Assembly: GCA_949825065.1 (NCBI GenBank)
Contig: OX463847.1
Span: 40,954,831-41,018,830, forward strand
Source of the DNA: Odontocerum albicorne
Taxonomy: Eukaryota; Arthropoda; Insecta; Trichoptera; Odontoceridae
Reading direction: 5' to 3'
Length of the DNA: 64,000 nt
Each line of letters opens with the position of its first letter. Positions within the stretch are counted from its first letter, which is position 1. The notes below the pieces were generated by a model. That model saw nothing but the letters and a program-made list of their open reading frames with translations, did no database searches and was not told the DNA's origin. Below, piece after piece: positions 9,647 through 63,144 of this stretch. A program made the translations under genes and the position numbers.

Positions 9647-10591
9647 CGAGGCGTATCCAGAAAGTAAGTATACTGAGGCTCTCATGACCGGATGGATTTT
9701 ATTTTCGACATGTTGGCTACACTTTCGTATAGCCTGACCCTTCCCCTCCGCAACAAGACCGGTTCGAGGTCAGTACGTTGAGAAGTGTCGAAGCGACAAC
9801 ACGTTTCGTGAAAAATGTCAAACCAATCTCCCGCCAAGTGCGAAATTTTGTAAAAAGGTAAGAGTTTTTGAGGCGCTGCAAACTCCATGGAGATGAATTT
9901 CTTCGCTCCATCGTTACTGGAGATAAAACTTGGGATGCACACTACACGCCTGAAACCAAAAGGCAGTCTCAACAGTGGCGTCCCACCTCTTCACCCTCCG
10001 CCAAAAAGTTCAAAACCACAATTTCAGCCAAGAAAATCATGGCATCCGTGTTTTGGGACTGTCAAGGCATAATTTTAATTGAATATATGCCTCAAGGGGA
10101 GACCATCAACTCTGCAAGATACTGTGAGACCCTAAAAAAATTGCGGAGGGCGATTCAGAACAAGAGGAGAGGCATGCTGACAAAAGGAGTCTGCCTGCTG
10201 CACGACAATGCCAGACCACACACGGCCAACGCCACGAAGGAACTGCTCGCCTCGTTTAAATGGGATGTCCTGAACCATCCCGCGCATTCCCCTGACCTAG
10301 CACCTTCACATTATTATCTCTTTACCTCCCTGAAGCTGCACATGGGTGGAAAAAGGTTTTCAACCGACGAGGAGGTAAATGAGGAGGTGGACGGAGGGGT
10401 TGGCGGGAAACTACTTTGAGGAAGGCATCAAAAAGTTGATACCCCGCTTCACCACCTGCATTGAGAGGAATGGCGACTATGTCGAAAAATAGCTTACATA
10501 TGTACTACGGTAACCACGTAATTTTTTTGTTTAAATAAAAAAAATTGTAACCTACAAAAATTCAGTACACTTAGTTTCTGAATATGCCTCG
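9647..10591 (+). mobile_element. mariner transposon, defective, complete ends
   Basis: Inverted ends CGAGGCGTATCCAGAAAGTA (left) and CGAGGCATATTCAGAAACTA (right, read inward) are bounded by TA at 9645-9646 and 10592-10593. At 945 bp it is shorter than a typical mariner of about 1.3 kb. The DNA-binding N-terminal third of the transposase is gone. The remainder is described under the pseudogene entry. Intact ends mean it could in principle still be moved by a matching transposase supplied elsewhere. Confidence 0.95.
9868..10491 (+). pseudogene. mariner transposase, D,D34D type, inactive
   Basis: The frame keeps most of the catalytic half of a mariner transposase. It has SIVTGDKTW (first Asp), HYTPETKRQSQQW, LLHDNARPHTA (second Asp), then HSPDLAPS followed 34 residues after the second Asp by SHYYLF where the family has SDYHLF. 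The third catalytic Asp is therefore His, which should abolish transposition. A frameshift near 10390 shifts the C-terminus (GNYFEEGIKKLIPRF and CIERNGDYVEK) out of frame, ending at the TAG at 10489-10491. The N-terminal helix-turn-helix half is deleted. The overlapping minus-strand open frames at 9.7-9.97 kb are shadows. Confidence 0.93.
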
Positions 10592-11793: not shown

Positions 11794-12622
11794 TTATAAT
11801 GGTTTTCTATATTTTGCTTGTATCCAAACTCGATACATAGTCAATTTCTTCCCTCTATTTACTTGTAACCTTCTATCAATCAAATTCTGTTCCTCGACAA
11901 AACCTTGTGACGTGAAAAGGTCTTTTATTTCTCCTTGAGTGAAGAAATAAACTCTAGTTCCATCGCCACGAGCATAAAAGTTTTCTCCTAAACACCGACC
12001 ATGTTTTAAACGCAACTGCGCTAGATCATATCTTCCATAGTCTCTCAAAAGAATGAGTCCACCTTTTCTCAAAGCTTTATAAGCTTTTTGAATAACTCCG
12101 ACCATCTTTTCAGGATCTATAGCTGATAAAACAAATATTATAACTATTATATCGATAGATTCATCTTCAAAAGGGACATCCCAATTTTCTGCAGTCGCAT
12201 CTAAAACAAATGCGTGACATCTTTCTTCGTCGTATAATTCATTTTCTTTTAAAATTGATACAGCCACAGGTGAAAAATCGCAACAATATATAAACAGATT
12301 AGGATCTTTGCTGTATTGAAGTATTGGGAATATTGTATTTCCAACTCCGCAACCTATTTCGAAGATGGTTCTTGTTTTACAGATCCTTTTATTTCGTTTT
12401 ACATTTTCGTTACTCATGGAAGGTGATGATTCATTTCCAGAACGCAAATTCAACTCAGTGTCATTTTTGAGACTTAATTCTTTGAGTCTGTTATTAATAT
12501 CAGAAGGATCGTCAGAAGATGATTGACTCGGTGTTAGTGGGTACACTCGTTCTGGAGCATTTTTATAATCCGGTGCTAGTTCTGGAAATTCAGTAAATAG
12601 CCAATGCCGGTCCTTGAAAAAT
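11794..12622 (-). other. METTL2: coding exon 3 of METTL2/8 (catalytic domain)
   Basis: A strong polypyrimidine tract and CAG (to 12623) precede the exon. It encodes [17 protein letters not shown], a Ser/Asp/Asn-rich linker of about 60 residues, and then the whole Rossmann-type methyltransferase core with SAM motif EIGCGVGNT, acidic CCDFS, post-I motif and the C-terminal [16 protein letters not shown]. The stop TAA is at 11796-11794. The upstream MLFFF seen in a naive open frame is intron sequence. Confidence 0.96.
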
Positions 12623-15600
12623 CTGAAAAAAAAAAGCAAAAAGTTACTAACCGATCAAGAACTAGTTATGGTTCGGAGCAGCTACAACTATGTTCAATCT
12701 TAGAAACAAATAAACAAAAATTCATATAAATAAAAATAACAGAGGTGTATATTTTTATATACATAATGCTATTTTTATTATATTAAAGTAAAAGAAAGTA
12801 CAATATATTTTACTAATTGATATTTTTTGGGCGGATCTCTAAAGGTTAAAAAGTTGATATCAAGGTATTTAGACCAAATCTTGATTTAACAAATCTATGC
12901 CCAAAGTAGGGAATTGTGGAAGTAAAAAAGGAAGGCCTTTTCTAATCTGGTTGTGAAACAATAGATAGAAAATGACCTGAATATTTGAAGACACAAATTG
13001 AGCATCATTTTAAAATATATATTTGTTTTTTGAATATCTAAAAGGGATTTGATGAAAATTAAAAGAAAAAAAAAAAGAAAATATTAAAATACCACATACA
13101 CTGTTCTTTTAATATCAAAACTAGCCATCCTCGATAAAATTCAATTTTCTTTCTTAGCATGTCTTTTCGATCTAGTGACAGCTAGATCCTTTGAATACCA
13201 ATGTATCACTCTACATACTCGTATCATCTTTTGGGGATATTCTTGGCTAAGTCAGGTGTGCTTTATCCATATCAATTTTTAAGAAAAACTAAAGTATTGT
13301 TTATTTCAAAATATTTCTCATCTTTAACTCCTATACAATGCCCATCTTATCCCTATTTCTCACCTTTAACTCCTATACAATGCCCATCTTATCTCTATTT
13401 CTCATCTTTAACTCCTATACAATGCCCATCTTATCCCTATTTCTCACTTTTAACTCCTATACAATGCCCATCTTATCCCTATTTCTCACCTTTAAACTCC
13501 TATACAATGCCCATCTTATCTCTATTTCTCATCTTTAAATCCTATACAAGCCCATCTTATCCCTATTTTTCTTGAAATTCATTGTTTACTTTTATTTTTA
13601 TTACTTTTACTCAAATATTACTTTAATTTACTTGGACTAAGATATGGTCATGGATACTCATAATAATTTTGAAACAAAAGTTGGTTGATTAGAAAAAATA
13701 ACTTAAAGTAACAAATCCACAGAATGTATTTATGTACAAGAAAGTGTCAAATAAATAAAGAAAACTAGTTATATTTAAATTGGTCAATCTATATACTATC
13801 AGCACAATAATAAAAGGACAATTTTTATTGTGCTATTTAAAGAGCACACCCTTTTCAAGACATACCATGTTTCATCAATACATTTTTATACTCGTTATGA
13901 ACATAATTGACAGTATTTTGATTCTCATCCTGGACATTCTTTTTACATAATCCCAATCCTTCAATTCATACTTAAGATCTCAGTTCAGATTATGGTCTCC
14001 TCTAGAATTTGCCATCTACCTTAGTTCTAAGACCTAATTTCCTATTTGGAGTACTAATTTGTATCTGAAGATGTCTTCCCATCTCCATCTTAGCCTTCAC
14101 ATTTAGATCGGTAATTGGTAATTTGTGACACATTATGTAATCTCCAAAAATATAGAATAACATTTAATTTTACCTATTGGTATGAATATTGTAAAATGCA
14201 TCCCAATATTTGTCAGCATTGTCTTCAAATTGATTGATCTCATCATCTGTGAAAACTACTTCTGAATTTCCAAAAACTTTCATACGGGCTTGCTCTTCTT
14301 GCTCCGAATCCCACTCTACATTATCCCTGAAAAAATATGAAATATTTATTACAACGAGAAAGAAAATAGTTGGATAAGTAATATAAACAGGTTTGCCAGA
14401 TCTTCAAATGGTAAAAGAATGAGCAAAGAAAGAAAGATTCACAAAGAAGATTTAAAAAAAACAATATAATGATAAAGTGTCCATGATAAAATTACCATTT
14501 TTTTCCTGGTTATTCCGGGGATGTAGGACCTTTTTCTTTTGAAGAGTCCCAACCCCTACTCCTTGTCGAGTACAATCATTTTATTTGAAAATTCTAAACC
14601 CGTTTTACATAAATGTGTGCATTGACTGTTTCATTATAGCTGGGTTTGCTGATACTTGATCTCTAAAAGTCTCATACGATAAACCCATGTTTATTTTGGT
14701 ATGATGGCTCGTATTGTTTTAACTTTCAGCTGTGATTTTTTTTCGTTCCAAATGTAGTTCATGCAAGAAAACACTCTTGCAACAAAAGTGTTGCTTGAGG
14801 GGAGGACCTCACAAGACTAACAACTGCACACAGTGCACTGTACTATATGTATAGTGTTTAATTTATCTTTTAATATAATAATTCTAATCATTTGTATTTT
14901 TTTTTGTTGTAATATTCACAAGTAGACATTAGTTTTAAGGAAGAAATACTGAATCAGAGACAAAATAAGCTGGGACACAAGTCTTGTTTCAGCACTGTCA
15001 CTATAAATCAGGGACGAATAGTCACCTTAGTCCATGAAGTTGGAGACCATTAAGAAAAACACAGAAGTATGATTATATTAAATCAAGAATTTCTAAAGTG
15101 GTCGATATCGACCCCCTGGGGTCGATTTGATTTTTCTAGGGATGGATAGTTTCAATAAAAAAATTTAGGGGTCGACGACAGCAAAAATAGACCCCCTTAC
15201 TACTGCTATTTGTTTGTTACTTCAACATATCTATGATACCAATAGGTACCTAATTAAGAATATTTGTACTTATTTTAAATTTACATATTTATTTCATAAA
15301 TGTCAAAAATTAAAAGAACTCTGCTCGTATTTTTTTGCTCTAATTTTCGTCAGCGCAGATTTCAGTATTAAATGTTGCGCAAGATAATGCAATGCATAAT
15401 CCGTAGTCTTTTCATATTTTTCAATCCTTAATTACAAGTGATTAAAATGAAAAATTTGATATCTAGTGAAATATTTAATATCGAGTACTGTAAAAACTTA
15501 TTAATTTCAGTAAGTAAAGTAAATGACTAGGGGGTCGACGGTTTTAAAAGTTTATGGTAAAGGGGTCTGCGGCCGAAAAAATTTTGGGAACTCTTGCATT

Positions 15601-16464
15601 AAATGTTAGGAAAACAGGTGTGAATGAATAATAGGTTAATATATGCCATCAACGTCTATCATCCAATAATTGAAGATTACTGAGACTTTCAACAACATGC
15701 AGAAAAAGAATCATACATACAATACTTGAGGCATGTTGATAGAAAAAATTGTGAAAAGTTTTGAGAAGTTGGGGATGAGAAAGAGGAAAGTGAAGAAATG
15801 AGATGGACAGATCAAATAAAAGAGTTAACAGAATCCTCTTCAAGTGCTGCAATCAACATGGCCAAGTGCCGGGGGGTATGGAGAAAGGTAATTCAATACA
15901 TAGCAGAGGGGCATGACTATCTATCTAACACTCAGAAAACTATCAAAGCCACATCCTCATAAGTATATGGCTTGGTAGTATTAATTTCATAACAAATTAA
16001 TATGTGTCACCAAAAATCTCATTTGCAAATTTAAAGAAGACAAAGTTAGTGAGATATAAAAAATACTAGCAGAATCTGGTCATCTATTTTATTCTAAACC
16101 ATCTATTTTTTTAAACATATATCAAGTATCTTGAATAAAAAATCCTAGATAGTTTATTATACCTTAAATTAAGAATCTGGCTACCCCGTTATATAACTAA
16201 TGATAATTCACAAACCAGGCATTGAATTCGAAAACACGACTTTTATCGACTAAATATCTGGAACCAAATTGAGGCTTTTTCCGATATCTAGTGTGACAGT
16301 TCTTTTTGAGGTTATGTAAGATGGAAGGAGAGAGAATTCTTGTTTTAAAATGACGAAAAGTCGTCAAAATCCTACCATGCACTGTGTTGGAAAACATCTG
16401 ATCCGTCTAATAAAAATCTGTTTCCAAACTGTGGCCTTTTTGAATCTTCCGTATTTTCAGCCAT
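11794..16464 (-). CDS. METTL2: tRNA N3-methylcytidine methyltransferase, METTL2/METTL8 family (gene span)
   Basis: A class I SAM-dependent methyltransferase that makes m3C at position 32 in the anticodon loop of certain tRNAs, by family knowledge. Three coding exons splice with GT-AG borders: first exon 16464-16376 or 16397-16216, then 14326-14174, then 12622-11794. The products are 356 or 387 residues, against about 378 for human METTL2. Signatures: PQFG-R-L-D-VF-AW followed by [33 protein letters not shown] motif [10 protein letters not shown] (about residues 199-208 of the long form); [54 protein letters not shown]. All expected core motifs are intact. A Ser/Asp-rich linker precedes the SAM motif. 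Alternative first exons suggest cytosolic and mitochondrial forms. Confidence 0.95.
12623..14173 (-). other. intron 2 of METTL2/8
   Basis: A+T-rich, with GTAAAA donor and T-rich acceptor tract. It contains the 42-bp tandem array at 13319-13570. The stretch 13900-14100 shows no recognisable gene. Confidence 0.85.
13319..13570. repeat. tandem repeat, 42-bp unit, 6 copies
   Basis: Unit CTTTAACTCCTATACAATGC then CCATCTTATCCCTATTTCT, strict 42-bp period, six copies with few changes. Because 42 is divisible by 3, two plus-strand frames stay open (one reads [11 protein letters not shown] repeatedly). These are artefacts of the array lying in the intron of a minus-strand gene. Confidence 0.95.
14174..14326 (-). 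other. METTL2: coding exon 2 of METTL2/8
   Basis: Acceptor TTTTTCAG ends at 14327. The exon completes the Trp codon and reads [20 protein letters not shown], then a [20 protein letters not shown] segment with IHTN, ending in AG before donor GTAAAA (GT at 14173-14172). The AG joins the A of exon 3 to make Arg. DNVEW and KYWDxFYxIH are diagnostic of METTL2/8 proteins. It has no in-frame stop but is too short to stand out as an open frame. Confidence 0.93.
15084..15596. mobile_element. hAT-like non-autonomous element
   Basis: 8-bp flanks TATTAAAT (15076-15083) and CATTAAAT (15597-15604) agree at 7 of 8 bases. The ends are CAAGAATTTCTAAAG and, inward from the right, CAAGAGTTCCCAAAATTTT, each followed by a GACCCC-containing segment, a common hAT terminal style. 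No transposase is encoded in the 513 bp. It is inserted in intron 1 of METTL2/8. Confidence 0.78.
15650..15960 (+). pseudogene. LINE reverse-transcriptase C-terminal fragment
   Basis: Plus-strand translation gives [20 protein letters not shown], then [13 protein letters not shown] and AEGHDY. It resembles the RWxDxIK-A-RDRxxWR end of RTE/CR1-like retrotransposon proteins. Upstream sequence is frameshifted. It lies antisense within the methyltransferase intron. Confidence 0.6.
16216..16397 (-). other. METTL2: alternative coding exon 1b of METTL2/8 (presequence-like N-terminus)
   Basis: The frame from ATG 16397 runs 60 codons plus TG to a second donor (GT at 16215-16214). Residues 41-61 read [20 protein letters not shown] plus Trp, matching exon 1a's [20 protein letters not shown] plus Trp at 12 of 21 positions. 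The two are a diverged tandem duplication. Residues 1-50 contain no Asp/Glu and 11 Arg/Lys with many Ser/Thr/Phe/Ile/Leu, like a mitochondrial targeting sequence. A TAG lies four codons upstream of this ATG in frame and no other in-frame ATG precedes the donor, so the start is fixed unless it is non-AUG. The ATG sits inside exon 1a in another frame. Transcript evidence is lacking. Confidence 0.78.
16376..16464 (-). other. METTL2: coding exon 1a of METTL2/8 (METTL2-like N-terminus)
   Basis: ATG at 16464-16462 opens [20 protein letters not shown], then GSDVFQHSA and the first two bases (TG) of a Trp codon, followed by the donor GTAGGA (GT at 16375-16374). Joined to exon 2 it gives AWDNVEW, the arrangement seen at the start of animal METTL2 proteins (PQFG-R-L-D-VF-AWDNVEW). 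If the donor is not used, translation ends at once at TGG TAG. The start context is TCAATGG, with T at -3, so it may be leaky. The exon is too short for most ORF finders (29 codons plus 2 nt). Confidence 0.88.
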
Positions 16465-35720: not shown

Positions 35721-36749
35721 GAAGCTCAAAGTCTATGGGTTGTTATAAATCAAATGTTGTGTAATTAATGGAGTTCAAAGTCCATGGGTTATTATAAATC
35801 AAATGTTGTGTAATTAATGGAGCTCAAAGTCTATGGGTTGTTATAAATCAAATGTTGTGTAATTAATGGAGTTCAAAGTCCATGGGTTATTATAAATCAA
35901 ATGTTGTGTAATTAATGGAGCTCAAAGTCTATGGGTTGTTATAAATCAAATGTTGTGTAATTAATGGAGTTCAAAGTCCATGGGTTATTATAAATCAAAT
36001 GTTGTGTAATTAATGGAGCTCAAAGTCTATGGGTTGTTATAAATCAAATGTTGTGTAATTAATGGAGTTCAAAGTCCATGGGTTATTATAAATCAAATGT
36101 TGTGTAATTAATGGAGCTCAAAGTCTATGGGTTGTTATAAATCAAATGTTGTGTAATTAATGGAGTTCAAAGTCCATGGGTTATTATAAATCAAATGTTG
36201 TGTAATTAATGGAGCTCAAAGTCTATGGGTTGTTATAAATCAAATGTTGTGTAATTAATGGAGTTCAAAGTCCATGGGTTATTATAAATCAAATGTTGTG
36301 TAATTAATGGAGTTCAAAGTCCATGGGTTATTATAAATCAAATGTTGTGTAATTAATGGAGTTCAAAGTCCATGGGTTATTATAAATCAAATGTTGTGTA
36401 ATTAATGGAGCTCAAAGTCTATGGGTTGTTATAAATCAAATGTTGTGTAATTAATGGAGTTCAAAGTCCATGGGTTATTATAAATCAAATGTTGTGTAAT
36501 TAATGGAGCTCAAAGTCTATGGGTTGTTATAAATCAAATGTTGTGTAATTAATGGAGTTCAAAGTCCATGGGTTATTATAAATCAAATGTTGTGTAATTA
36601 ATGGAGTTCAAAGTCCATGGGTTATTATAAATCAAATGTTGTGTAATTAATGGAGCTCAAAGTCCATGGGTTATTATAAATCAAATGTTGTGTAATTAAT
36701 GGAGCTCAAAGTCCATGGGTTATTATAAATCAAATGTTGTGTAATTAAT
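35721..36749. repeat. 49-bp satellite, 21 units, dimeric higher-order structure
   Basis: 21 exact-length units. Type A has GCTCAAAGTCTATGGGTTGT; type B has GTTCAAAGTCCATGGGTTAT. The order is ABABABABABAB BB ABAB B, then two hybrid units (A-like GCTC with B-like remainder). Diagnostic sites sit in the first half; the second half (AAATCAAATGTTGTGTAATT) is invariant. The homogeneity indicates recent amplification of a 98-bp dimer with later unequal exchange. Confidence 0.97.
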
Positions 36750-37509
36750 GTTTTTTATTCATTGAACAGATACATTCTAAAACTACTACAATAAAAAAAA
36801 TGAATCTAATATTATGACAAGATTATTTGATGATTAAAGTTTTTTTGTTTGATAGGCAAATTTGACATAAAAGTACATATATCACGAAAGTCGCTTTGCC
36901 AAAAAAAATGATAGATGGCAGCAGTATAGTAGTACCATTTAGGATTTTGAAGTAAAGGCACTTCTGGCTTATAAAGAAACGTTGTGTGGCTCAAATTTTA
37001 ACACTAACTAATTTTTTTGTTTTGTTAGATAGGCTGGTCTGGCTTTATGCCACTCATATATTGTAAGTGTTTGTGTGTTGCTATAATATTCATAAGTCGA
37101 TAAATCCTATTTTATGCTGATGATGATTTTATAATTCGCCAGCATTTATGGCATAATCAAACAGAGTCAGATAAAGGCACGCAATTATTTCTATATTTAG
37201 CTTCGGGATTCAATAAACTCGTTACGCCTTATCGCAAGGCCATATTGTCCCACATTCATACTAACTACAAATACTCGTATAACGTGCACAGAAGACAAAT
37301 ATCCTATCCTTAGCAGGACGGTCCTATATCAAGGACTCAGTCCTTCATCTTGAATAAATTAACGTAAAAGGAATTTATTCACGATATTATAATTTGCGTA
37401 ACATATGCCTTTGGGGATTTATTTTATTTATTCTTTTTTTTTTCATTCACATATTTAGGAAAGATATTGAAGTTGTAAAATATACACTTACATACCATCA
37501 CCCTATTTC
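36750..37509. other. A+T-rich DNA, nothing recognised
   Basis: No supported feature between the satellite and the LINE remnant. Confidence 0.4.
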
Positions 37510-59729: not shown

Positions 59730-60575
59730 AAAAATATACTTTGGCGTCACTCGATCGGAGTAGCCAATCGATCCGAAGATGAACCGATGTAAGGTTGAGT
59801 CAAACTATCCTTTGACGTCACTAGATCGGAGTAGTCAATCGATCCGAAGATGAACCGATGTAAGGTTGAGTCAAACTATCCTTTGACGTCACTAGATCGG
59901 AGTAGTCAATCGATCCGAAGATGAACCGATGTAAGGTTGAGTCAAACTATCCTTTGACGTCACTAGATCGGAGTAGTCAATCGATCCGAAGATGAACCGA
60001 TGTAAGGTTGAGTCAAACTATCCTTTGACGTCACTAGATCGGAGTAGCCAATCGGTCCGAACATGAACCGATGTAAGGTTGAGTCAAACTATCCTTTGAC
60101 GCCACTAGATCGGAGTAGCCAATCGGTCCGAACATGAACCGATGTAAGGTTGAGTCAAACTATCCTTTGACGCCACTAGATCGGAGTAGCCAATCGGTTC
60201 GAACATGAACCGATGTAAGGTTGAGTCAAACTATCCTTTGACGCCACTAGATCGGAGTAGTCAATCGATCCGAACATGAACCGATGTAAGGTTGAGTCAA
60301 ACTATCCTTTGACGTCACTAGATCGGAGAAGTCAATCGATCCGAACATGAACCGATGTAAGGTTGAGTCAAACTATCCTTTGACGCCACTAGATCGGAGT
60401 AGCCAATCGGTCCGAACATGAACCGATGTAAAGTTGAGTCAAACTATCCTTTGACGCCACTAGATTGGAGTAGCCAATCGGTCCGAACATGAACCGATGT
60501 AAGGTTGAGTCAAACTATCCTTTGACGCCACTAGATCGGAGTAGTCAATCAATCCGAAGATGAACCGATGTAAAT
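59730..60575. repeat. 71-bp satellite, about 12 units
   Basis: Unit TCAAACTATCCTTTGACGTC, ACTAGATCGGAGTAGTCAAT, CGATCCGAAGATGAACCGAT, GTAAGGTTGAG. Two subtypes (GACGTCACTAG with ATCGATCCGAAGATG, and GACGCCACTAG with ATCGGTCCGAACATG) occur in blocks with some recombinants. The first subtype contains a CRE palindrome TGACGTCA in each unit. Confidence 0.97.
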
Positions 60576-62360: not shown

Positions 62361-63130
62361 GAAACACATGGAACCTTTTATTATTCAAATATGTCAATAG
62401 CAATTTGCTAACAACAGTTGTGCCATACGTTGAAATTCATCAATCGCGAGAACGCAAAAATTGGCTAGCTTCAGTTTGGTTTGTCGGATATTTTAAACAC
62501 ATGGAACCTTTTATAATTCAAATGCGTCAATAGCAATTTGCTAACAACAGTTGCAAGTTGAAATTCATCAATCGCGAGAACGCAAGAATTGGCTAGCTTC
62601 AGTTTGGTTTGTCGGATATTTTAAACACATGGAACCTTTTATAATTCAAATGCGTCAATAACAATTTGCTAACAACAGTTGTAAGTTGAAATTCATCAAT
62701 CGCGAGAACGCAAGAATTGGCTAGCTTCAGTTTGGTTTGTCGGATATTTTAAACACATGGAACCTTTTATGATTCAAATGCGTCAATAGCAATTTGCTAA
62801 CAACAGTTACAAGTTGAAATTCATCAATCGCGAGAACGCAAGAATTGGCTAGCTTCAGTTTGGTTTGTCGGATATTTTAAACACATGGAACCTTTTATAC
62901 TCGTAATTCAAATGTGTCAATAGCAATTTGCTAATAACAGTTGTAAGTTGAAATCCATCAATCGCGAGAACGCAAGAATTGGATAGCTTCAGTTTGGTTT
63001 GTCGGATATTTTAAACACATGGAACCTTTTATAATTCAAATGCGTCAATGGCAATTTGCTAACAACAGTTGTAAGTTGAAATTCATCAATCGCGAGAACG
63101 CAAGAATTGGCTAGCTTCAATCTGGTTTGG
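62361..63130. repeat. tandem repeat, about 128-bp unit, 6 copies
   Basis: Unit AAACACATGGAACCTTTTAT, AATTCAAATGCGTCAATAGC, AATTTGCTAACAACAGTTG, CATCAATCGCGAGAACGCAA, GCTTCAGTTTGGTTTGTCGG. The copy at about 62880 carries a 6-bp insertion CTCGTA (62900-62905) absent from all others. Confidence 0.96.
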
Positions 63131-63144
63131 CAGATATTTAAAAT

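Follow-up and report, generated by a model that had tools for sequence, protein, structure and literature searches.

A Mettl2 first exon with two competing 5′ splice sites as a putative source of cytosolic and mitochondrial tRNA methyltransferases in the trichopteran Odontocerum albicorne

Main finding

In a 64-kb stretch of the Odontocerum albicorne genome (hereafter, the window), we identified a Mettl2 gene whose first exon appears to contain two competing 5′ splice sites, so arranged that a cytosolic and a mitochondrial enzyme could be produced from one gene. Based on sequence comparisons, we estimate the probability of this reading at roughly 0.8. According to the proposed mechanism, use of the donor at 16375 would give a short acidic cytosolic enzyme of 356 aa. 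When the donor at 16215 is used, the cytosolic open reading frame would terminate immediately, and initiation at the following AUG (16397, in the +1 frame) would give a protein of 387 aa, whose basic presequence would probably lead to mitochondrial import. The imported form would then methylate C32 of mt-tRNA-Thr/Ser(UCN), which is the job of METTL8 in humans. For this species, we infer the use of both sites, initiation at the second AUG, the import and the substrates.

Gene structure and homologous ends of the first exon

The gene includes the following features (positions are those of the window).

16376..16464, minus strand: coding part of exon 1a (ATG at 16464, last exon base 16376), encoding the METTL2-type N-terminus of the predicted cytosolic form
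16374..16375, minus strand: proximal 5′ splice site, ATG/GTAGGA (score 2.8, 98th percentile)
16216..16397, minus strand: exon 1b reading frame (ATG at 16397, last exon base 16216), encoding a putative basic presequence and the second copy of the segment
16376..16397, minus strand: stretch readable in two frames, as the end of 1a (..DVFQHSAW) and as the start of 1b (MFSNTVHG..)
16214..16215, minus strand: distal 5′ splice site, CTG/GTTTGT (score -0.08, 90th percentile)
14174..14326, minus strand: exon 2, common to both forms, which completes the Trp codon with its G and continues with DNVEW
11794..12622, minus strand: exon 3, common to both forms, encoding the SAM-binding methyltransferase domain through the stop codon

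The bases just before exon 2 (14326-14174) are TTTTTTCAG. Exons 1a, 2 and 3 together encode the 356-aa METTL2-type protein, in which a domain search identified the PF08242 methyltransferase domain (E 2.2e-15), and the frame opened by ATG 16397 continues through exons 2 and 3 to give the 387-aa protein. Compared with the proximal donor (16375), the distal donor (16215) keeps a further 160 nt in the mRNA. The assignment to the METTL2/Trm140-type family is based on full-length homology, the RPQFGxR..NAWDNVEW segment, and the SAM domain. METTL2 or Mettl2 is the name given to many of the best 120 of 3,064 homologues, and the identity to lepidopteran proteins is about 60%. The window protein is nearer to METTL2 than to METTL6, and it does not belong with the latter. 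By homology, then, this gene is the insect Mettl2 tRNA m3C32 methyltransferase, with its activity, which for this type would be m3C32 formation on tRNA-Thr/Arg, predicted on the same basis. Rfam and tRNA scans of the window (the latter with the bacterial code) gave no matches.

The original prediction for this locus described two exon ends on the minus strand, each with a Trp codon split as TG/G, whose donors (16375 and 16215) both connect to exon 2 in an identical phase and give AWDNVEW. The coordinates and the translation agree with this description in full, as does the count of identical residues between the 1a and 1b ends (12 of the 21 preceding the Trp). The local BLOSUM62 score of the two ends is 69, while the best of 2,000 residue shuffles reached 41; when exon 1a was compared with all frames of the 64 kb (open pieces of at least 10 residues), the runner-up to 1b scored 35. 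A chance likeness of the two ends is ruled out by these values. The segment common to 1a and 1b can be written as KxPxFGxRxL..VFxxNAW, with the 1b copy being diverged. Its residues G, R, L, N and W do not vary across 40 homologues that include both types (the window is outside the 40). Both forms therefore appear to require the segment, and this requirement would account for its duplication in place of the mere addition of a presequence. The two ends had been interpreted as tandem-duplicated alternative first exons. The duplication of homologous ends stands, but the structure is better described as one exon with two donors, since 1b is not free-standing.

Start codons and donor sites

The sole ATG of the 1b frame (16397) sits inside exon 1a in the +1 frame, with GTG and TTG codons downstream in the same frame, and 67 nt separate it from ATG 16464. 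When the 16375 donor is skipped and the mRNA is spliced at 16215, the exon 1a reading frame ends with AW-stop. Because the start codon of 1b falls within 1a in another frame and the exon 1a frame is closed in this way, the choice of splice site alone is not sufficient to swap the N-termini, as had been proposed, although the two donors and the alternation of an acidic and a basic N-terminus are both found. For the mitochondrial form, the distal donor must be combined with leaky scanning or with transcription from a later start. The base at position -3 is T for ATG 16464 and C for ATG 16397; T or C at this position makes a weak initiation context. Donor scores were calculated with a consensus matrix, and their percentiles are given among the 3,231 minus-strand GTs of the window; on the same scale, the exon 2 donor scores 0.49.

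Distribution of the two N-terminal types

We classified the N-termini of 124 homologues, comprising the best 120 of 3,064 from a protein search and four from searches with the N-terminal region, a set that is not a fair sample. The two N-terminal region searches gave two and nine candidates, respectively; the first returned one protein that was already listed, and the second added the four. By eye, P0121 was reassigned to 1a and P0122 to the fused models. Altogether, there are 91 proteins of the 1a type, 28 of the 1b type, three fused gene models in which 1a precedes 1b (Colias, Anopheles farauti, and Sarcophaga), and two proteins without the region. Among the listed homologues, the 1b type is present in Lepidoptera, Coleoptera (Tenebrio), Diptera, Hymenoptera (Microplitis), and Orthoptera (Schistocerca). 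Two of the 28 proteins of the 1b type (P0073 and P0110) have no species assigned. Microplitis is the only named hymenopteran with 1b among the matches listed, and the same matches (the best 120 of 3,064 plus four) include no 1b-type protein from Hemiptera, Thysanoptera, Blattodea, Odonata, Trichoptera, or Crustacea.

Two species are represented by isoform pairs in which X1 is of the 1b type and X2 of the 1a type, namely Papilio machaon (P0003 and P0029) and Anticarsia gemmatalis (P0026 and P0049). Both X1 and X2 of Arctopsyche are of the 1a type. The conservation of both exons in related arthropods had been suggested as a check of the original prediction, and both N-terminal types do recur across insect orders. 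A species-specific duplication is rejected on account of the 1b-type N-termini in several orders and the existence of two segment classes.

Two further observations concern individual species. The protein P0116 from the crustacean Oratosquilla oratoria is listed as isoform X2 and is of the 1a type; the respective X1, if it carries 1b, would push the duplication back to Pancrustacea. Haematobia irritans has two near-identical METTL2 proteins of the 1b type (P0123 and P0124) encoded in contigs of different length, which are perhaps haplotypes or the result of a recent gene duplication.

Segment classes and age of the duplication

The fourth residue before the Trp (position -4) is His in 87 of 91 segments of class 1a and Phe in 25 of 28 segments of class 1b. 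Human METTL8 presumably has His and not Phe at this position, and thus its N-terminus need not descend from 1b. All but two of the 119 segments score nearer to their own class, the exceptions (P0083 and P0103) both being 1b. On a tree of the 104 distinct segments there is a single change between the classes, compared to a minimum of 20 over 200 label shuffles; with a segment only 23 residues long, this tree was used for the contrast between 1a and 1b alone. The nearest sequences to the window 1b segment are those of Gryllus and Schistocerca 1b. Given the two classes and the single change on the tree, the segment duplication is most simply placed before the split of Orthoptera and Holometabola. 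The window 1a segment has Ser at position -3 (QHSAW), where Asn is found in all 119 others (91 of 1a and 28 of 1b); this Ser may reflect a genuine substitution, a polymorphism, or an error in the sequence.

Properties of the 1b presequence

A 50-residue basic presequence without acidic residues had been described for 1b, and indeed its first 50 residues contain no Asp or Glu and 11 Lys or Arg. Among the 115 stop-free stretches of 50 codons in the window that start with Met, 12 have no Asp or Glu, and only one of the 115 also has at least 11 Lys or Arg. This one must be 1b itself, since 1b satisfies both conditions and belongs to the scanned set. The net charge is at least +5 in all 29 1b heads (the window included, counted through the RKKP motif) and zero or lower in 83 of 92 1a heads (the window included, counted up to FG). 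Acidic residues are absent from 14 of the 29 1b heads, and the remaining 15 have at least one, mainly in Lepidoptera and Diptera. Matrix presequences are usually basic and acid-poor. As judged by charge and acidic-residue counts, a basic presequence is present on one form only, which is the feature expected of a METTL8-like protein. AlphaFold models Papilio X1 with a mean pLDDT of 76.5, but residues 1-47 are below pLDDT 50 and the duplicated segment is not placeable.

Overlapping reading frames in other insects

In the window, the +1 overlap fit of the 1a/1b pair spans 8 codons. For the homologues, each 1b head was compared with 88 1a tails to see whether a DNA exists that encodes the tail and, when read in the +1 frame and through W/GT, also the head. 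In the +1 frame, 18 of the 28 1b heads can be fitted over 8 to 11 codons, whereas the +2 frame fits no head among the 28. In 200 shuffles, no equally good fit arose for 17 of these 18 heads; the exception is P0024, whose match was not altered by shuffling, which makes the shuffle uninformative there. The overlap reaches 11 codons in each of the two same-species pairs (Papilio machaon and Anticarsia gemmatalis). The ten heads that failed include both Orthoptera, as well as two that start with MLG and are too short for the test. For the window and the 18 heads that fit, the overlap places the two donors 109 to 169 nt apart. Automatic gene models usually choose the longest open reading frame. Since many of the 1b heads come from such models, the overlap demonstrates the contiguity of 1a and 1b in modelled transcripts and not the use of the AUG. 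One protein of the 1b type (P0110, 351 aa) has a source contig of 1,122 bases, too short to contain introns as well and thus in keeping with a cDNA.

Related genes in the genome

The 1.287-Gb assembly (1,241 contigs) was searched in six frames, exon by exon, with the 1b protein as the query, and seven candidates were scored. At E values up to 1, the search produced six matches, of which four correspond to this locus (exons 1a, 1b, 2 and 3) and two to the contig C814, the stronger of these two being METTL6-type. In total, the genome search yielded one METTL2/8-type locus and one METTL6-type locus. The presence of a separate METTL8-like gene, together with neutral decay of exon 1b, was one of the observations that, according to the original prediction, would speak against it. 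No such gene was found in the six-frame, exon-by-exon search, whose six matches are confined to the METTL2 and METTL6-type loci, and we reject a second METTL8-like gene on this basis; likewise, the search revealed no METTL8 orthologue distinct from METTL2.

The METTL6-type exon (L003/L010, contig C814, 24268-24705) is identical to human METTL6 in 77 of 161 alignment columns and to the window METTL2 in 51 of 143. The 39-kb contig C814 also has a weak match (E 0.13) to a last exon about 2.4 kb downstream of this exon. A search of the genome for the PF08242 family gave six matches, including the METTL2 and METTL6-type loci. Of the other four, three were inspected by eye and are unlike this family; the fourth is L005.

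The window additionally contains an open frame of 185 aa at 9862-10419 on the plus strand, with the motif HDNARPHTA, which we take to resemble a mariner-type transposase; fragments similar to this frame are also found next to the METTL6-type exon of L003. Arrays of tandem repeats (periods 42, 49, 71, and 128-390) are located at 13312-13568, 35726-36750, 59731-60573, and 62362-63143, the first of them within the intron that separates exon 2 from exon 3.

Alternative explanations

The 1b form may be served by its own downstream transcription start (an alternative promoter) and not by leaky scanning, an option that we regard as possible but doubtful. A start within the 67 nt between ATG 16464 and ATG 16397 would expose the latter as the first AUG, and otherwise the frame ending with AW-stop would behave as an upstream open reading frame. 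However, ATG 16464, with T at -3, has a weak context that would permit leaky scanning, and a promoter for 1b only would need to start within the exon 1a coding sequence. It is unlikely that the long isoform is bound for a non-matrix site such as the nucleolus, with the basic run as a nuclear or nucleolar signal, given that the 1b heads are basic and acid-poor (no acidic residue in 14 of 29), as matrix presequences usually are. In favor of such a destination, human METTL8 without its first 20 residues is described in the cytoplasm, the nucleus, and likely nucleolar foci (PMC8752778).

The splicing of 1a and 1b in tandem into one longer protein is predicted for three of the 124 homologues (the fused models above), whereas 1b occurs without 1a in 28 of the 124, and we consider this explanation very unlikely. 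Six AG sites are located at least 40 nt past the 1a donor in the window; five of them lead to a stop and the sixth removes most of the 1b motif, so tandem inclusion of both segments in this species is rejected for lack of a suitable AG among the six. Scarcely credible is the view of exon 1b as a decaying functionless duplicate reached by noise splicing. The weaker donor, the weak start context and the out-of-frame start of 1b are what decay might produce, but across orders the 1b class retains an open frame, a basic head, and a signature of its own (Phe at -4 in 25 of 28), and the window 1b is closest to that of Orthoptera.

We thus retain the two competing 5′ splice sites of the Mettl2 first exon as the preferred reading. 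With less confidence, we also lean toward a broader proposal of an ancient dual-coding first exon, in which the last codons of insect METTL2 1a would also be the +1 start of a mitochondrial presequence, followed by the duplicated segment and the distal donor. Mitochondrial m3C32 would then have been supplied in this way since before the split of Orthoptera and Holometabola, and in vertebrates via a gene duplication (METTL8).

Comparison with known systems and implications

By the title of Huang et al. 2022 in NAR, alternative splicing of METTL8 is said to matter for mitochondrial tRNA m3C, and in this respect the human gene resembles ours, as a spliced m3C methyltransferase. In humans, the mitochondrial m3C32 enzyme is METTL8, which has an N-terminal targeting sequence that METTL2A/B and METTL6 are reported to lack (PMC8752778, PMC8980813). 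The cytosolic human METTL2A/B and the mitochondrial METTL8 belong to the same enzyme family as the window protein, and the mitochondrial form is likewise marked by an N-terminal targeting sequence; in contrast, they are products of separate genes, while here a single gene carries two copies of a first-exon segment. METTL8 is reported to have originated among vertebrates (PMC8980813). For this reason, the label "METTL8-like" of the original prediction is kept here for function and abandoned for ancestry. A human METTL8 mRNA isoform without the targeting sequence is mentioned in one report (PMC8752778). That isoform loses the targeting sequence, whereas in the insect gene two homologous copies of a segment would alternate.

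Human LysRS is an example of a synthetase provided to the cytosol and mitochondria by one gene, and we know of no duplicated exon segment with overlapping frames in such dual synthetase genes. The aminoacyl-tRNA synthetases of the cytosol and of mitochondria are reported to originate in some cases from a single gene, by way of splicing, transcription, or initiation (PMC10817482), so that, as proposed here, one gene serves both translation compartments. In fungi, one alternatively spliced gene, SKI7/HBS1, does the work of two paralogues found elsewhere (PMC3597508). It differs from the present case in the proteins involved and in the use of 3′ and not 5′ splice sites; furthermore, the spliced gene is reported there as the ancestor of the paralogues, while no such ancestry is established for the METTL2 gene.

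We found no description of the insect METTL2 arrangement in the literature searched, as judged by titles and the starts of abstracts, with most subscription papers and all preprints outside the scope, although the protein databases already list the two isoforms as X1 and X2. The principle of one gene serving two compartments by splicing is known; the duplicated, dual-frame form and the role of an insect counterpart of METTL8 appear undescribed in this literature.

The reported vertebrate origin of METTL8 (PMC8980813) raises the question of which enzyme, if any, modifies the mitochondrial tRNAs of other animals, and for insects the METTL2 locus offers a definite and testable answer. The locus also illustrates a route to a mitochondrial form when an N-terminal motif must stay in place: the motif is duplicated, and a new start codon is laid over the old frame. 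A job that in vertebrates is divided between separate genes is probably done by one insect gene.
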